Source: Natronobiforma cellulositropha (GTDB lineage Archaea > Halobacteriota > Halobacteria > Halobacteriales > Natrialbaceae). From it: a DNA stretch of 64,000 bases. The notes beneath the pieces were generated by a model. The model worked only from the letters and a program-made list of their open reading frames with translations, did not search any database and had not been told where the DNA came from. The first letter of the stretch is position 1. Every line of letters begins with the position of its first letter. The position numbers and the translations under genes are program-made. The stretch spans positions 52,858-116,857 of the forward strand of contig NZ_JANZXN010000004.1 of NCBI RefSeq assembly GCF_025629245.1, in the 5' to 3' direction. This document shows positions 252 to 50,786 of this stretch, one piece after another.

Positions 252-566
252 TCAGTTCGGGTTCGTCTCGGTGTCGGTTTCGGTAACCGTGTTGGACTCA
301 GCCCCCGCCTCGGCCCCCTCGGTGCTGACAGGCTCGCCGTCGATTTCTTCGTCCTCGACGCTTTCGAAGCCAGTCTGGCGCATCTCTTCGAGTTCAGTCT
401 CGACCTTTTCTCGCCCCTTCTGGAATTCGCCCATTGCCTCGCCCGTCGAGCGCGCGAGTTTCGGGATCTTGTTCGCCCCGAACAGCAATATGGCGATGAA
501 GAGGATGATCAACAGTTCCGGTCCCCCTGGCGTTGGCACGAACAGGGGTGCGATGTCAGTTGCCAT
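252..566 (-). CDS. tatA: Twin-arginine translocase subunit TatA/E
   Basis: This is a small membrane component of the Tat pathway, which exports folded proteins and is the main secretion route in haloarchaea. About 104 residues: a short N-terminus, one hydrophobic segment with the family motif FGANKIPKLARSTG (the TatA hinge F-G plus amphipathic helix), then a long acidic tail rich in Glu and Thr. The ATG at 566 (MATDIAPLF) is preferred over an upstream start because a TATA-like TTATAAT element at about 592-598 lies 26-32 bases upstream, as expected for a leaderless gene. Several Tat substrates occur in this window (22275, 29939 and 54280 genes). Confidence 0.9.
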   Translation of the reverse strand: MATDIAPLFVPTPGGPELLIILFIAILLFGANKIPKLARSTGEAMGEFQKGREKVETELEEMRQTGFESVEDEEIDGEPVSTEGAEAGAESNTVTETDTETNPN

Positions 567-42325: not shown

Positions 42326-43027
42326 TCAGTCACCGGTCGTGAGCCGCCACTCGTCGTCTCGCGTCGCCTCGAGCAGCCCACGGCGTTCCATCTCGGTCAG
42401 CACCTCGAGCACGCGCCCTGGCTGGGCGATCTCCATCTCGATGCGGCGGATGTCGTGGGAGGCGGTGAGCGCGTGGCAGATCTCGTCGACGGTGAACGAC
42501 TCCTGGTCGGCCCGCGCCATCGCACTCGAGATGAGGTCGACCATGTCCTCGATGAAGTTCCACGGGTAGACGACCCAGGTCCACTCCTCGAGCCGTTCGC
42601 CGACGTAGTCGGGTTCGAACGCGCTGGTCTGGAGGAGCTGTAAGGTGGCGGTTCTGACCCGGCGCGCGCCACGGTCGGTGACGTACTCGTGGGCGCGCTC
42701 GATCGAGCCGCCGGTGTCGGCGATGTCGTCGATGATCAGGACGTCTTTGTCTCTCACACTGCCCTCGGGCATCGGGTAGCGGATCGTCGGCTCACCCGAC
42801 TTCTGGGCGGTGCCGACGTAGTGTTCCATCTTGAGGCTGGTCAGGTCGTCGAGACCGAGAAAGTCACAGAGACACCGGCCGGCGAACCAGCCACCGCGCG
42901 CCAGCGCGACGACGACGTCGGGTTCGAACGAGTCACGGCGAACCTCGGTGGCGACGTCGCGACACAGCCCGTAGATGTACTCCCAGTTGGTGATCGTACA
43001 GTCGAAGTCCTCCGGTAGGTCGGACAT
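42326..43027 (-). CDS. Phosphoribosyltransferase with C-terminal winged helix
   Basis: 233 residues. The PRTase fold shows VVVALARGGWFAGR (N-terminal strand and helix) and the PRPP-binding loop VLIIDDIADTGGSIERA. It resembles haloarchaeal PRTases annotated for hypoxanthine/xanthine or for regulatory roles. The last 70 residues form a winged helix (DEICHALTASHDIRRIEMEI... VLTEMERRGLLEATRDDEWRL), so the protein may couple a purine or PRPP signal to DNA binding. Stands downstream of the unknown operon at 43091 by 63 bases, on the same strand. Confidence 0.85.
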   Translation of the reverse strand: MSDLPEDFDCTITNWEYIYGLCRDVATEVRRDSFEPDVVVALARGGWFAGRCLCDFLGLDDLTSLKMEHYVGTAQKSGEPTIRYPMPEGSVRDKDVLIIDDIADTGGSIERAHEYVTDRGARRVRTATLQLLQTSAFEPDYVGERLEEWTWVVYPWNFIEDMVDLISSAMARADQESFTVDEICHALTASHDIRRIEMEIAQPGRVLEVLTEMERRGLLEATRDDEWRLTTGD

Positions 43028-43090
43028 GCTCTCGAGTGTGCACTCGTGAGCGACCGGTATAAGTGAGACCGAAAGCGGCCAGCGAGACCG

Positions 43091-45709
43091 TCAGCGACGC
43101 AGTGGCTCGCGCTGGAGTGTCTCGGGTTCGAGATCCATCCCGCGAACGAGCGCCGACCGGATGGGATCGGCGTCGAAGCGGGCGGTGTCACGGTCGAGAC
43201 CCTCCGCGGGCAGGTCGAACCGGTCGGTGACGACCGATTCGACGAAGCGCTCGAGGTCGGGAGTCCGTTCGATCGGAGTCGTGACGGGACCGACGTCGGG
43301 GAACCGTCCGGGGATCGGCACGGGTGGCTTCGGGAACGGCCCGTCCCAGAAGTCGGGGTGGAGCGGCCGGAGGTCTTCCCGGAGGATGTCGAGACCGGCC
43401 AGACAGCCCGGAATCGACGTGCCCGTCGCCGGTGGCTTGCCGCCGCTCTTCTGCGTACCCGCGAGATCGAACCACTCACACCCGGCGAGGGCGAGACCGC
43501 GGTCGTCGACGACCGCCCCACAGAGGTCCGCCTCGAGCGGCGTGCCGAGTTCGGTCGTCAGTTCACACTCGGTGCCGTCGACGTCGTACGAGATCGGGTA
43601 GCCGTCTACGTCGAGGACGCCCTCGCCCTCGATGACGGTGCCGTCGAGACGCCACTCGACCGTCTCGAGCGGGTAGGCGAGCAGGGACTTCTCGAGCGAG
43701 GCGGTGATCCGTCTGGCGACGGTCTCGACGGTGTAGGTCGCCGAGTGTTCGATGGGGACGAGTCCGCCGCCGAACCGGCCACCGCCGAGACCGTAGGAGG
43801 AGCGACACTCGAACTCGGTCCAGGTCTCGACACCACTGTCGATCTCCTCGCGGTCGGTGATCTCGACGACGGTGTCGACCTCGACGCCGGGCTGTGGCCG
43901 CTCGTAGGTGACGAACGTCAACTCGAGGACGGCACCGACCCGACGTACCCGACACTTCGCGTAGCGCTGGTCGGCGGTTCTGACGGCGAACGTGGTCCAG
44001 CCTGGCGACCAGGGTGAGAAGGGCGTGCTTGGAATCGCCGAGGCCGAGACGAACGTCGTCCCGTCGCCCTGGTAGTCGAGTTGCTCGAGGTCGATCGGCG
44101 TCAGGTTGGCGAAGGACGTCCACCCGAGGGGGACGATCGTCGCCCCGTTGTGGGCGCGAACGCCGTCGCCCGAGGCGCGCCAACTGAGATCGATTCCCGA
44201 CTGGACGGGAGTGGCGAGTGAGTCGACCGTGCCCGTGTCGAGGTCGACGCCGTTTCCCGGCGCGAGCCCGACCATCCCGGAGGCGGCGAGCGGGAGCGAC
44301 TCGTCGTAGGCGGCGTTTCCGGCGAGGAGCAGGCTATCGGGGGTGATCTCGACCGACTCGACGGTGAACACCTCCGCGAGCGGACCGAGCGGGATCGACA
44401 GCGAGTCGACGTCGGCGAGTTCGGAGCCGACAAAGTCGTCGACGAAGCCGCTCGCCATCCGGTCACCGATGACGTCGACGAGTTTGATGACGACGAACGC
44501 GGTGATCGCCCCCGCGATACCGCCCGTGATGGCCCCGATGACGGCACCGGCAATCGACGCCCAGGTCGACAGCTTGACGTCGACGTCGATGTCCTCCTCG
44601 ATGTTCACGACGATCTCGCCATCTTCGAACTCGAGGGTGATCTCGAGGAGGATGTCCGCCTCGACGTCGAAGGGGATTTTTTTGTAGCTGCCACTGCCCT
44701 CGGCAGTCCCCGTGACCTCGATGTGGCCGTCGACGAACCGGACCTCGAGCGACTCGAGCGAGAGATCGTCCACCTCGTCGACGTCGTCGACCGGAATCGG
44801 CGCAGAGCCGGTGAAGCGACACGGCGAGTCCAGCACGTCCGGATCGACGTCGAGCGCCTCGGCGAGTTCCGAACAGAGCAGCCGCGAGATGACCGTCTCC
44901 TCGTCGACCATGACGACGATGGGGTTCGCCGCCGTCGTCTGGCTCGTCTGGAAGGCGTCCGGGTTGCCGGTCGTCTCCGGATGGGTCGCCATGAGGAACG
45001 CCAGACAGTTGCTCGAGTCGGTCCTGATGAGACGGGCGTCGAGGTCGACCGGCGTCGCGACGTCGTACTCGTGGTCGGGGTCGGAGACGACCGGCTGCAA
45101 CTCGAGGGGCTGTGGCGTCAGCGGAATCTCCTCGCTGATCTCCTCGAGTTCGTCCCGGACGGTGATCGCCATCGCCTGGCTGATCGAATCTGCGTCACCG
45201 AGGAGTCCGTCACCGGCGTCGATGGTGGCCGCTGACTCGGCGGTGAAGCCGACGGCGACCTCGTCGACGTCCTCGTCGATCGGGAGGACGACCTCGCGCG
45301 CCTCGTCCTGCCCCGGGGCGTCGCGGATCTCGAACTCCTGCTGGATGAGAAAGCAGCCGTCGAGGTCCGGTGCGTCGACCTGTCCGGAGATCTCGATCAG
45401 CGAGGAACTGAACGGCAGACAGAACGTCACCGTCCGGTCGGTCGCCGGCTCGAGTCCGGCCACGCCGTGCTGGCCCCAGTCGTACTTACTGAGCAGGGGC
45501 GTCGTCGCCGGATCGTCGCTGAAGTCGACGAACGGCGTGTCGAAGAGGAAGTTGAACTCGATCTCGAGGGCGAAAATCGCTTCCGTATCGCGGATCTGTA
45601 GCGGCATCCCGAACTCGTCTCCGCCGGTGGCGAACTGGAGGGCGACCTGGTCGTTGAACTCGCGTTCGTCGATCTGGACGACCACGTCGTAGCCGTGCGT
45701 CGAGGTCAT
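43091..45709 (-). CDS. Large beta-rich protein, P-47/TULIP-like
   Basis: 872 residues, no signal peptide. The start THGYDVVVQIDEREFND closely recalls clostridial P-47 (which begins with T-x-G-W-D-I-V and a short helix), a member of the tubular lipid-binding (TULIP) fold. Long beta strands fill residues 35-380, with a second family-like segment VVMVDEETVISRLLCSELAE at 266-286. Residues 384-412 are a Gly/Ala/Ile helix (AGAVIGAITGGIAGAITAFV), a feature also seen as a Gly-rich helix in P-47 proteins. The C-terminal half (TPIDLEQLDYQGDGTTF... RVRRVGAVLELTFVTYE...) is all-beta, and it ends in a Pro-rich segment. Its start overlaps the HhH gene by four bases (ATGA). The TULIP call is an inference from short similarities. 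Confidence 0.6.
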   Translation of the reverse strand: MTSTHGYDVVVQIDEREFNDQVALQFATGGDEFGMPLQIRDTEAIFALEIEFNFLFDTPFVDFSDDPATTPLLSKYDWGQHGVAGLEPATDRTVTFCLPFSSSLIEISGQVDAPDLDGCFLIQQEFEIRDAPGQDEAREVVLPIDEDVDEVAVGFTAESAATIDAGDGLLGDADSISQAMAITVRDELEEISEEIPLTPQPLELQPVVSDPDHEYDVATPVDLDARLIRTDSSNCLAFLMATHPETTGNPDAFQTSQTTAANPIVVMVDEETVISRLLCSELAEALDVDPDVLDSPCRFTGSAPIPVDDVDEVDDLSLESLEVRFVDGHIEVTGTAEGSGSYKKIPFDVEADILLEITLEFEDGEIVVNIEEDIDVDVKLSTWASIAGAVIGAITGGIAGAITAFVVIKLVDVIGDRMASGFVDDFVGSELADVDSLSIPLGPLAEVFTVESVEITPDSLLLAGNAAYDESLPLAASGMVGLAPGNGVDLDTGTVDSLATPVQSGIDLSWRASGDGVRAHNGATIVPLGWTSFANLTPIDLEQLDYQGDGTTFVSASAIPSTPFSPWSPGWTTFAVRTADQRYAKCRVRRVGAVLELTFVTYERPQPGVEVDTVVEITDREEIDSGVETWTEFECRSSYGLGGGRFGGGLVPIEHSATYTVETVARRITASLEKSLLAYPLETVEWRLDGTVIEGEGVLDVDGYPISYDVDGTECELTTELGTPLEADLCGAVVDDRGLALAGCEWFDLAGTQKSGGKPPATGTSIPGCLAGLDILREDLRPLHPDFWDGPFPKPPVPIPGRFPDVGPVTTPIERTPDLERFVESVVTDRFDLPAEGLDRDTARFDADPIRSALVRGMDLEPETLQREPLRR

Positions 45710-46581
45710 CGGTGCCCCTCCTCGACGGCAACAGACAGCGAACGCATCGAGACCGGCGGCTGAGCGCTGACCTGCTCGTCAGCCAGGATCGCACGGAGCC
45801 GACGCGTCTTCTCGGGAGCGATCTCGGCGAGCGCCGACGCCGGATCGAGGACGAACTGTGCGGCGTGTTCCGGATCGGCGTCGATCCACTCGAGGAGGTG
45901 TGGTTCGAGTTGGTTCACGAGCTCGAGGTCGCGCTCGTCGACGCCATCGGGGAGTGTCCCCTCCTCGAGGGCACGCCTGAGCCAGGGACCGAACGACTCG
46001 CTCGGCCTGAACGTGACCGTCACGTCCACGTCGACATCGTGTCCGGTGAGCGGCGTCGAGCCGACGCGGCCGTCCTCGTCGATCTCGGCTTCGAGAACCC
46101 GCTGGAGCAACGCCCCGCGGACACCAGCCGCCTCACTCGAGACCGGGCGTGCGCGTTCACGCGCCTCGTCGATGGCCGACTCGAGTGCGGCCGACGACGA
46201 GGGCCGACAGCGTCTCGATGTCGCCGTCTCGCGACGCGTCGCCTCTGCCTCGCGTCGGGCGGTCTCCTCCTCCTCGCGCCGAGCGATCTCCTCCTCCTCG
46301 AGCCGGTCGCGTTCGACGACGACCGCGTCGCCGTCGCTCGAGCGCTGACGGGTCAGGCGCTCGCGCGTCTTCGACTCCTCGTAGGAGAGTTCACGCGTCT
46401 CAGAGATCAGTTCGGCCGCCGATTCGATCATCGAACGCGCCGTCGCGTCACCGATACCGGAGATGGCAGTCAGCTCGGTTCGCGAGGCGCGGCCGATATC
46501 GTCGATCGTCTCGAATCCCGACCGCCGGAGCAGCGTCGCCCGCGACGGGCCGACGCCGTCGAGATCCTCGAGTGACGTCAT
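45706..46581 (-). CDS. HhH/coiled-coil protein, partner of the P-47-like gene
   Basis: 291 residues in three parts: helix-hairpin-helix pair at 1-58 (LDGVGPSRATLLRRSGFETI and ISGIGDATARSMIE); a highly charged coiled coil at 62-145 (EEEEIARREEEETARREAEA); and a C-terminal domain with DVDVDVTVTF and EWIDADPEHAAQFVLDPASAL. HhH usually contacts DNA or proteins; the C-terminal part is unrecognised. It is cotranscribed with and overlaps the P-47-like gene, so the two very likely act together. ATG at 46581 is used because MTSLEDLDGVG starts the HhH; a GTG at 46611 is possible. Confidence 0.65.
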   Translation of the reverse strand: MTSLEDLDGVGPSRATLLRRSGFETIDDIGRASRTELTAISGIGDATARSMIESAAELISETRELSYEESKTRERLTRQRSSDGDAVVVERDRLEEEEIARREEEETARREAEATRRETATSRRCRPSSSAALESAIDEARERARPVSSEAAGVRGALLQRVLEAEIDEDGRVGSTPLTGHDVDVDVTVTFRPSESFGPWLRRALEEGTLPDGVDERDLELVNQLEPHLLEWIDADPEHAAQFVLDPASALAEIAPEKTRRLRAILADEQVSAQPPVSMRSLSVAVEEGHR

Positions 46582-46740
46582 CAGACACCACTCCCCTGAC
46601 CGACCGGGCACCGTTTCTCACAATTCATCACACACATGTCTATCTTCCACCAATGGGTATTCCCCATAACCACAAATTCGCCACCATCGTAATAATACAT
46701 CAGGTGAGTGAAGTTTCGATGGGCGCACATCCGGTGGAGT

Positions 46741-46768
46741 TATAACTGAGTTGTATTCTCTAGTTATA
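46741..46768 (+). promoter_or_regulatory. thiC promoter with 7-bp inverted repeat
   Basis: TATAACT (46741-46747) and AGTTATA (46762-46768) form perfect arms ending two bases before the thiC ATG. The first arm coincides with the expected TATA position 24-30 bases before the start. Occupancy would block both TBP and the start site. No TPP riboswitch sequence is visible. Nearby ATGGG-TATTC-CCCAT (about 46653-46667) is a smaller dyad on the divergent HhH side. Confidence 0.55.
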
Positions 46769-46770
46769 CG

Positions 46771-48195
46771 ATGACGACGCAACGACAGGCCGCTCGAGAC
46801 GGGACGATCACACCCGAGATGGAACGCGTCGCACAGCGAGAACGGTGTGAGCCCGAGTTCGTCCGCGAGCACGTCGCGGCCGGAACCGCCGTTATTCCGG
46901 CGAACGTCCACCACGACTCGCTCGACCCGATGATCATCGGCGAGGCGTTCTCGACGAAGGTCAACGCCAACATCGGCAACTCGGAGACGACGAGCGACCT
47001 CGAGGAGGAACTCGAGAAACTCCACACGGCGGTCCACCACGGCGCGGACACGGTGATGGACTTAGGTACCGGTGGCGACCTCGACCGGATCCGCGAGGCG
47101 AACGTCGAACACTCACCGATCCCCGTCGGGACCGTCCCCATCTACGAGGCGGTCAAGCGCGCGGGCGGCCCGGACGAGTTGACGCCCGAGTTGTTACTCG
47201 AGGTGATCGAGAAACAGGCCGAGCAGGGCGTCGACTACATGACGATCCACGCGGGCATCCTCGCCGAGCACCTGCCGCTGACGGAGGGGCGAAAGACGGG
47301 CATCGTCTCCCGGGGCGGGTCGATCGTCGCGAAGTGGATGGAGACCCACGGCGAGCAGAACCCGCTCTTTCAGGTCTACGACGAGATCTGTGAGGTCTTC
47401 GTCGAACACGACGTGACCTTCAGCCTCGGCGACAGTCTGCGGCCAGGCTGTCTCGCCGACGCCTGCGACGAGGCACAGTACGCCGAACTCGACACGCTGG
47501 GCGAACTCACCCGCATCGCCACCGAGCGCGGCGCGCAGGTGATGGTCGAAGGTCCCGGCCACGTCCCGATGGACCGCATCGCCGAGAACGTCGAACGCCA
47601 GCGGGAGGTCTGTGACGGCGCGCCATTCTACGTCCTCGGCCCGCTCGTCACCGACATCGCCCCCGGCTACGACCACATCACGAGCGCCATCGGCGCGGCC
47701 ATCGCCGCCCAGGAGGGTGCCGCCATGCTCTGTTACGTCACCCCCAAAGAGCACCTCGGCCTGCCCGAAAAGCAGGACGTCCGCGACGGACTCGCTGCCT
47801 ACCGGATCGCCGCCCACGCGGGTGACGTGGCCAACGGTCTCCCCGGCGCGCGCGACTGGGACGACGCCCTCTCGGAGGCGCGCTACGCCTTCGACTGGAC
47901 CGAGCAGTTCCGCCTCGCGCTCGACCCCGAACGCGCCCGCTCGTTCCACGACCAGACGCTCCCCGGCGACAACTACAAGGAGGCGCGCTTCTGCTCGATG
48001 TGCGGCGTCGACTTCTGCTCGATGCGCATCGACCAGGACGCCAGAGACGGCGACAGTCTCGAACACCTCGTCGCCGACACCGACCTCGAGACCTCCGCCG
48101 CCGCCGAGGTCAACCTCCCGCCGGTCGGCACCCACCACGACGCCCACCCCGCGAACGACGGAGCCGACCCGGCCGCCTCGAGTTCCGACGACTAG
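46771..48195 (+). CDS. thiC: Phosphomethylpyrimidine synthase ThiC
   Basis: A 474-residue radical-SAM enzyme that converts aminoimidazole ribotide to hydroxymethylpyrimidine phosphate for thiamine synthesis. Landmarks: [64 protein letters not shown] and [12 protein letters not shown]. The C-terminal cluster motif is CSMCGVDFC (408-416), the C-x2-C-x4-C pattern of the family. A leaderless start is supported by the promoter dyad just upstream. Acidic C-terminal tail after the motif. Confidence 0.95.
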
Positions 48196-49716: not shown

Positions 49717-50786
49717 GATGGTGTCATACAATTCATCTCATGCCACGAGCTTAGTTCGGCCCGGATTTTCACCTTGTTCGTAGTTCGTGATGGCGACGAT
49801 CACTCGGAGACACAGTCCAAGATACGCTTGTACCCGCGCATGGACGCGGCCTCGGGCGCGCAGCGTCCCGAGGCCGCAGTCTAAACACGCTCCAAACGTC
49901 CGCTCAACTTGCGTTCGACGCTTGTACGTCTCATTAAGGATCAAACGCTTGAGCGTTACATCCTCGGGAAATTCGTTAATTCGGTCTTCGATGCGGTATT
50001 CGATATCGAGCGGATCAGTGGTGTTTCGTGCGTTGTACGGGGCGATCGGCACGACTCCTGCTTCCAGCAGGAAGTCGTGCCAGTCGAGAATGTCGTAAGC
50101 ACTGTCCCCAAGCATCCAGATCGGACATTTGATGGCGAGCGCGTCACACGTGACGCGCATCGCCGTCTCCTTCGAGGCCTGTTTCGCCTGCGTAAACTCC
50201 GCTGCGGTCGGAATATTTGACCCTGCCGAAGCGATCGTGAGGCCGAATCCGTAGTAGTATTCTTCGGCCGTTAGATCGTAGTTCCACGACGCGTCACCGT
50301 TCCACGCGAGAGCTTCGAGATCGGTTGAATCGATACGGAAGGTAGAGTCGAGCAGGCCACGAGCGGCGGCCTGCTCGACGAGGCGGCTGAACACGTCGTC
50401 AACGACGAGTCCGAGATCGGTGAGGAAGCGATCGGCCGCGTCTCTCGACGGCGATCGATCGAACCCACAGCTGAGCCAAACGGCCGTATTCTGGAGTTCT
50501 CGGGTGACAGGACGAGGCCCGTAGATTCCCCTGTAGAAGCAGTGAAGAAAGCCTCTGAACAGTTCTGGCGGGTGATGGTCTCGTGTTCTCCCCCGATGAG
50601 CGGGGGCGAACACGTCATACTCACTGAGAAAGTCAAAGCTGAGGTATTCGAAGAGCGGAAGCGTCTCGACTGCCACGAGATTAAAGAACTCGTCTATCCA
50701 AGGCTCATCTTGCAGGGTCGCTGAACTCATTCCACCTCAGCGTTCACCCTGCTCTTTGGTATGCTAACTGTTCTATGACACCCTCT
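49717..50786 (-). mobile_element. Insertion sequence (IS4/IS5-like), about 1.07 kb
   Basis: One transposase gene is flanked by imperfect terminal inverted repeats. The left end AGATGGTGTCATACAA (49717-49732) matches the reverse complement of the right end AGAGGGTGTCATAGAA (50771-50786) at 14 of 16 positions. The exact ends and any target duplication cannot be fixed by eye. It separates PhzF from a lower-GC remnant. Confidence 0.8.
49738..50730 (-). CDS. DDE transposase (IS4/IS5 superfamily)
   Basis: A 330-residue transposase. The DDE residues are readable as Asp134 in RIDSTDLEAL, Asp209 in MLGDSAYD and Glu276 in YKRRTQVERTFG; the last shows the Y-x2-R-x3-E signature (Tyr269, Arg272, Glu276) of the IS4 superfamily. 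The N-terminus is a helical DNA-binding region (PPELFRGFLHCFYRGIYG, RDAADRFLTDLGL). No frameshift or truncation is visible, so it may be active. G+C is lower than that of its neighbours. Confidence 0.9.
   Translation of the reverse strand: MSSATLQDEPWIDEFFNLVAVETLPLFEYLSFDFLSEYDVFAPAHRGRTRDHHPPELFRGFLHCFYRGIYGPRPVTRELQNTAVWLSCGFDRSPSRDAADRFLTDLGLVVDDVFSRLVEQAAARGLLDSTFRIDSTDLEALAWNGDASWNYDLTAEEYYYGFGLTIASAGSNIPTAAEFTQAKQASKETAMRVTCDALAIKCPIWMLGDSAYDILDWHDFLLEAGVVPIAPYNARNTTDPLDIEYRIEDRINEFPEDVTLKRLILNETYKRRTQVERTFGACLDCGLGTLRARGRVHARVQAYLGLCLRVIVAITNYEQGENPGRTKLVA

Follow-up and report, generated by a model that had tools for sequence, protein, structure and literature searches.

A sparsely distributed haloarchaeal gene pair encoding a putative P47/OrfX3-like TULIP protein and its putative partner

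Introduction

The closest described systems to the one considered here are the P47 and OrfX proteins of botulinum and insecticidal toxin loci. P47 causes liposomes to aggregate, OrfX3 has OrfX1 as a binding partner, and OrfX2 anchors on NTNH via protein contacts in botulinum complexes (PMC13030710). The P47 proteins of insect pathogens may bear C-terminal extension domains (PMC7020563), and TULIP domains elsewhere mostly hold lipids (PMC5507252). TULIP/P47 folds have been described from bacteria and eukaryotes, with P47 occurring in certain fungi as well (PMC6791001, PMC7020563, PMC13030710, PMC5507252); no archaeal member is reported in this open-access literature, and one of these four papers states that archaeal sequences have not yet been mined. 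In this work we analyzed a 64,000-nucleotide stretch of the haloarchaeon Natronobiforma cellulositropha (contig NZ_JANZXN010000004.1, positions 52,858 to 116,857; hereinafter "the window"), which harbors two adjacent genes coding for a large protein of 872 amino acids (P1) and a partner of 291 amino acids (P2); residue numbers refer to the window copies. It appears that a P47/OrfX-like two-gene unit of this kind was previously undescribed in archaea.

Results and Discussion

Linkage, Distribution, and Mobility of the Gene Pair

A preliminary description of the window had proposed an operon of two genes, and the coordinates of the open reading frames (ORFs), both on the minus strand, bear it out, including the length of P1 and the overlap of four bases between the two genes. 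Both frames are intact, the N-terminus of P1 reading MTSTHGYDVVVQID, and they are not the product of chance, since the P1 homologues are 25–41% identical to the window P1 over most of its length, and P2 behaves likewise.

P1 was found in seven haloarchaeal genomes, belonging to six genera and four families, with one copy carried by a plasmid. The window genome is the sole carrier among the 125 genomes of its family; the others are G131 and Halobellus captivus (G374), which belong to one genus, G191, G232, a Salinarchaeum metagenome-assembled genome (G423), and G477, whose copy has coordinates matching the Haloplanus rubicundus plasmid pCBA1112-02. A P2 homologue lies directly upstream of P1, on the same strand and either overlapping it or a few bases apart, in 7/7 genomes; hence, the co-conservation of the two genes in other Halobacteria, by which the preliminary description had set store, extends to both adjacency and gene order. 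The loci have no gene family plainly in common besides P1 and P2, except for the two syntenic Halobellus genomes. The genome_contigs scan retrieved P1 only in Halobellus captivus and in a Salinarchaeum metagenome-assembled genome, no P1 relative was detected in viral_contigs (two scans) or in phages, and the plasmid tblastn search with the P2 C-terminal domain and a divergent P1 gave chance-level matches only, bar the known Haloplanus copy. The weak matches in other Halobacteria (L006-L008, L023, and L024) are apparently due to chance or belong to other families; L024, for one, is a UPF0179 protein. A reading of the pair as a defence system was also dropped, as no PADLOC match was obtained.

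The pair sits between a gpt-like phosphoribosyltransferase gene and thiC. In two genomes of the window's family (G051 and G021), these divergent neighbours are only 146 and 115 bp apart, respectively, and therefore the pair represents a clean two-gene difference. The promoter-like stretches of the empty gpt-thiC sites are recognisable on both sides of the 3.5-kb insert of the window, and no direct repeats of at least 9 bp were found at the insert edges. The comparison of the two Halobellus loci (L010/L011) revealed that the syntenic neighbours diverge far more slowly than P1 and, above all, P2: the ratio of nonsynonymous to synonymous substitution rates (dN/dS) is 0.34 for P1 and 0.67 for P2, against 0.10–0.18 for five neighbour genes. 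Given that these values come from a simple Nei-Gojobori count on one species pair, we treat the fast evolution as suggestive. P1 and P2 constitute a self-contained two-gene unit whose distribution is sparse and probably lateral.

As for the gpt-thiC gap itself (window 43028-46770), occupied by the pair here and empty in G051 and G021, it is possibly a favoured insertion spot. The corresponding gap of G107 (G107:C3:98088-100451) holds unrelated genes, that is, a different insert.

Predicted Fold of P1

AlphaFold2 models of the full-length P1 and of its residues 1-476 were built from a three-sequence alignment. When the latter model was compared with the Protein Data Bank (PDB) using Foldseek, 10/10 matches at E<=1e-3 were TULIP entries. 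The first was OrfX3 (8bgm_D, 2.2e-7, prob 1.00; also 8fbd), and the others included LBP (4m4d, 1.7e-5), P47 (6ekt, 2.5e-5, prob 1.00; also 5wix), and OrfX2 (6ekv among them, 2.9e-5 to 5.9e-4); beyond E 1e-3 the list continues with BPI, BSP30, SPLUNC1, and SMP domains. The full-length model also placed OrfX3 at rank 1 and P47 at ranks 4 and 5, whereas the same comparison of the 1-476 model with viral predicted structures gave nothing at E<=1e-3. The order of the elements in this model, whose confidence is low, fits the TULIP layout, in which a twisted antiparallel beta-sheet wraps a long helix, and the best-confidence part of the region spans residues 270-417, with a helix at 270-285, strands at 297-380, and a second helix at 388-417.

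This second helix embeds a Gly/Ala-rich hydrophobic stretch; the peak 21-residue Kyte-Doolittle window (388-408, 2.07) falls within it, in agreement with the Gly/Ala helix that had been placed at 384-412. The further statement that P1 is otherwise all beta must be abandoned, as helices are modelled at 18-26, 157-165, 173-189, and 270-285. No hydrophobic N-terminal signal was seen in any of the seven P1 homologues, and the absence of a signal peptide noted earlier thus concerns the whole set. In conclusion, the models make it likely that P1 1-476 has the TULIP fold class, and the first reading of the pair is supported both at the fold level and for the linkage of the two genes.

Our preferred interpretation, which we put forward with moderate confidence, is that the two genes form a unit in which P1 is a TULIP lipid- or membrane-binding protein and P2 its dedicated partner, of a new family. 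Different observations weigh against it. The models are of low confidence, because only three sequences entered the alignment (mean predicted local distance difference test score (pLDDT) 42.9 and predicted template modelling score (pTM) 0.29 for the full-length protein; 50.3 and 0.37 for residues 1-476), and the structural alignment with P47/OrfX3, whose family has two TULIP-like domains in about 410-480 residues, covers nearly all of P1 1-476 and reaches template modelling (TM) scores of only 0.20–0.27; therefore, the fold class is to be taken as likely and the model itself as unreliable. Moreover, the Gly/Ala helix is weak or absent in the two most divergent P1 members, and the loci have no toxin, export, or lipid gene in common. 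Lastly, PF06597 (Clostridium_P47; cut-off 27 bits) did not match P1 in its own genome (E<=10) or any of the six homologues (E<=1), nor did it exceed the cut-off in any of 145 Halobacteria genomes.

HMMER searches with P1, as single sequence and as profile, gave no match in Pfam, NCBIfam, PHROGs, PADLOC, or PDB. The low pLDDT and TM-scores, together with the lack of any sequence match to a TULIP family, are what one would expect if P1 were some other large beta-rich protein that low-confidence models resemble by chance. This explanation seems to us quite improbable: two models of different length both lead to OrfX3/P47, and the uniformly TULIP nature of the significant matches goes along with an empty viral-library control.

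The Partner Protein

The preliminary description had distinguished in P2 HhH domains, a Glu/Arg coiled coil, and an unrecognised C-terminus. The first corresponds to one HhH_5 domain (PF14520) with two HhH motifs at residues 3-56, scoring 48.7 bits (E=1.1e-12) against a cut-off of 27. It is present in 6/7 partners; it is absent from that of the divergent relative L013, and no HhH was found there in any frame just upstream. Concerning the coiled coil, the composition is as described (21 Glu and 19 Arg in residues 60-150), but the stretch is not conserved: according to the alignment, it is particular to the window copy, the linkers of the relatives being of low complexity and of other composition. 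The C-terminus, where EWIDADPEHAAQFVLDP is indeed present in the intact frame, is the sole part of P2 common to all members. Since HhH is lacking in one relative and the Glu/Arg stretch is unconserved, the constant part of the partner is this unrecognised C-terminus, which, being alone shared by all members, is proposed to bind P1. Its profile, run against 242 Halobacteria genomes, gave four strong matches, all adjoining P1, with the remainder at E about 5e-4 or worse.

A reading of the P2 C-terminus as the leader of a ribosomally synthesized and post-translationally modified peptide was rejected, as the lone weak Frankia_peptide match (E=0.026, one member) is far below the cut-off and there is no core-peptide layout.

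The frequency of HhH_5 among the partners and the lack of a visible signal peptide would also suit an intracellular link between the membrane and the nucleoid or the ribosome, with the TULIP part lying on the membrane and the HhH of P2 binding DNA or RNA. However, a partner devoid of HhH, as that of L013, and a distribution so patchy, unlike that of a housekeeping link, make this explanation decidedly improbable. Under the preferred interpretation of a TULIP protein with a dedicated partner, the N-terminal HhH would rather be an optional attachment for possible contacts with nucleic acid or some other protein.

C-Terminal Domains of P1 and Proposed Mode of Action

The TULIP region of P1 is followed by three further segments (Table 1). 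The first (residues 480-606) is an unnamed mobile domain with the motif string FDLDTG ... DLxW ... GA ... LG ... FAVRT ... YAKCRV ... VTY. In profile-profile comparisons, it matched P0003, a propeller-like protein of haloarchaea (E 6.9e-7), as well as plasmid proteins of Sinorhizobium and Streptomyces (2.7e-5); the Sinorhizobium protein harbors two tandem copies of the domain, and the Streptomyces one has a C1 peptidase and I42 inhibitor as neighbours. No Pfam name for this domain was found in its carrier proteins. Its consensus in haloarchaea, Sinorhizobium, and Streptomyces reads FDxDxG...DVWW...RxLVP...GA...LG...FAVRT...KV.V...YG..L..W, and the loci holding it besides P1 are L026:9320-11476, L032:5797-7353, and L033:5971-6990. 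The mobile domain of P1, which has no name, deserves notice as one common to archaea, rhizobia, and streptomycetes. The Pro-rich tail closes with a conserved short motif (about xxALxRG), in which A853 and G857 are invariant.

It is possible to outline how the two proteins might work together. The first 470 residues of P1 would form two TULIP-like units arranged as in OrfX3/P47, whose hydrophobic tunnel or helix would hold a lipid or engage a membrane, and the C-terminal beta domains, mobile module included, might supply the surface or target. The C-terminal domain of P2 would bind P1 in the manner of OrfX1 with OrfX3, and the four-base overlap, by allowing co-translation, might favour the assembly of the complex. 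The role of such a complex would not be a housekeeping one, and it may be outward-facing or concern the conflict with other organisms.

The same beta domains and mobile module, as well as the rapid evolution of the pair, might also be accounted for if P1, though TULIP-derived, were a scaffold and not a lipid carrier, forming with P2 a carrier or a protective shell for a protein encoded elsewhere, similarly to OrfX2, which contacts NTNH protein-to-protein (PMC13030710). On the other hand, no cargo gene is common to the loci and the TULIP domains known elsewhere are mostly lipid-holding (PMC5507252); we consider this arrangement unlikely.

Extending the idea of a lipid- or membrane-binding P1 with its dedicated partner, one can speculate, as a bolder and rather doubtful proposal, that archaea own P47/OrfX-type TULIP complexes that spread as mobile cassettes of two genes, comprise a new partner family, and act on the membranes of other cells or viruses. 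If this were true, the TULIP scaffold of botulinum and insecticidal toxin loci would be a general microbial device, existing also apart from toxins. An archaeal P47/OrfX-like protein with no toxin nearby and a small obligate partner would offer a harmless system for asking what the fold does alone, a question that applies equally to the OrfX/P47 proteins, and the archaeal pair would help to date the TULIP fold in prokaryotes.

Features and Surroundings of the Locus

The features of the locus are reported in Table 1. The neighbours of the pair in the window are gpt, a histidine kinase gene, and thiC, and the GC content across the pair (64–68%) is similar to that of the flanking DNA. A DDE transposase (PF01609) is located at window 49741-50730, downstream of thiC and not adjoining the pair, within a low-GC patch (about 56%) at 50–52 kb.

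Table 1. Coordinates of the gene pair, its predicted domains, and the flanking genes in the window.
Feature	Position	Strand	Basis and remarks
P1, putative P47/OrfX3-like TULIP protein with C-terminal extension	43091..45709	-	ORF, 872 aa; six further haloarchaeal genomes carry a homologue
P1 residues 1-476, predicted tandem TULIP region, length equal to OrfX3	44282..45709	-	AlphaFold2 model and Foldseek
P1 residues 270-417, helix, five strands (four long), Gly/Ala-rich hydrophobic helix 388-417	44459..44902	-	Models, pLDDT, hydropathy
P1 residues 480-606, unnamed mobile domain	43892..44272	-	Profile-profile matches
P1 residues 608-756, all-beta, Ig-like or sandwich-like	43442..43888	-	Strands; many pLDDT 70-89 blocks in full-length model
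P1 residues 760-872, Pro-rich tail	43094..43432	-	Alignments
P2, partner protein	45706..46581	-	ORF, 291 aa; all relatives have a homologue immediately upstream of P1
P2/P1 stop/start overlap, 4 bases	45706..45709	-	ORF coordinates
P2 residues 3-56, HhH_5 domain	46414..46575	-	PF14520, E=1.1e-12; absent in L013 partner
P2 residues 60-150, unconserved linker rich in Glu and Arg	46132..46404	-	Composition, alignment
P2 residues 154-291, C-terminal domain, conserved and proposed to bind P1	45709..46122	-	Alignment; profile search
Phosphoribosyltransferase gene (gpt-like), flank	42326..43027	-	PF00156; gap to thiC of 115 bp in G021 and 146 bp in G051
thiC, flank	46771..48195	+	PF01964, E=2.5e-185

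Comparison with Known Systems

Among the prokaryotic TULIPs, YceB, DUF4403, DUF2140, and DUF2993 (PMC6791001) are bacterial and short or envelope-anchored, and none of them is among the listed PDB fold matches or the Pfam matches. The BPI/LBP/CETP and SMP-type TULIPs resemble P1 at the fold level, through the matches to LBP, BPI, BSP30, SPLUNC1, and SMP; however, they are eukaryotic, mostly secreted or located at organelle contact sites, and match less well than OrfX3/P47.

The P47 and OrfX proteins are not known to have a signal peptide, and none is seen in P1. The likeness to P47/OrfX3 (PF06597) further includes the best fold matches and a TULIP region of equal length. The differences are that P1 is archaeal, devoid of detectable sequence homology to that family, and provided with about 400 extra residues including the mobile domain, and that P2 consists of HhH plus a new C-terminal domain, unlike OrfX1. 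In addition, the orfX1, orfX2, and orfX3 genes, as well as toxin or NTNH genes, are absent around the P1-P2 loci. Since PF06597 failed to match and the other elements of the orfX-p47 cluster are missing, P1 is not to be filed as a member of the P47 family; at most, it works like a P47/OrfX3-type TULIP protein. Some P47 proteins carry C-terminal extension domains (PMC7020563), as P1 does, and OrfX3 has a small protein partner, OrfX1, that binds it (PMC13030710); P1 likewise has a small putative partner in P2.
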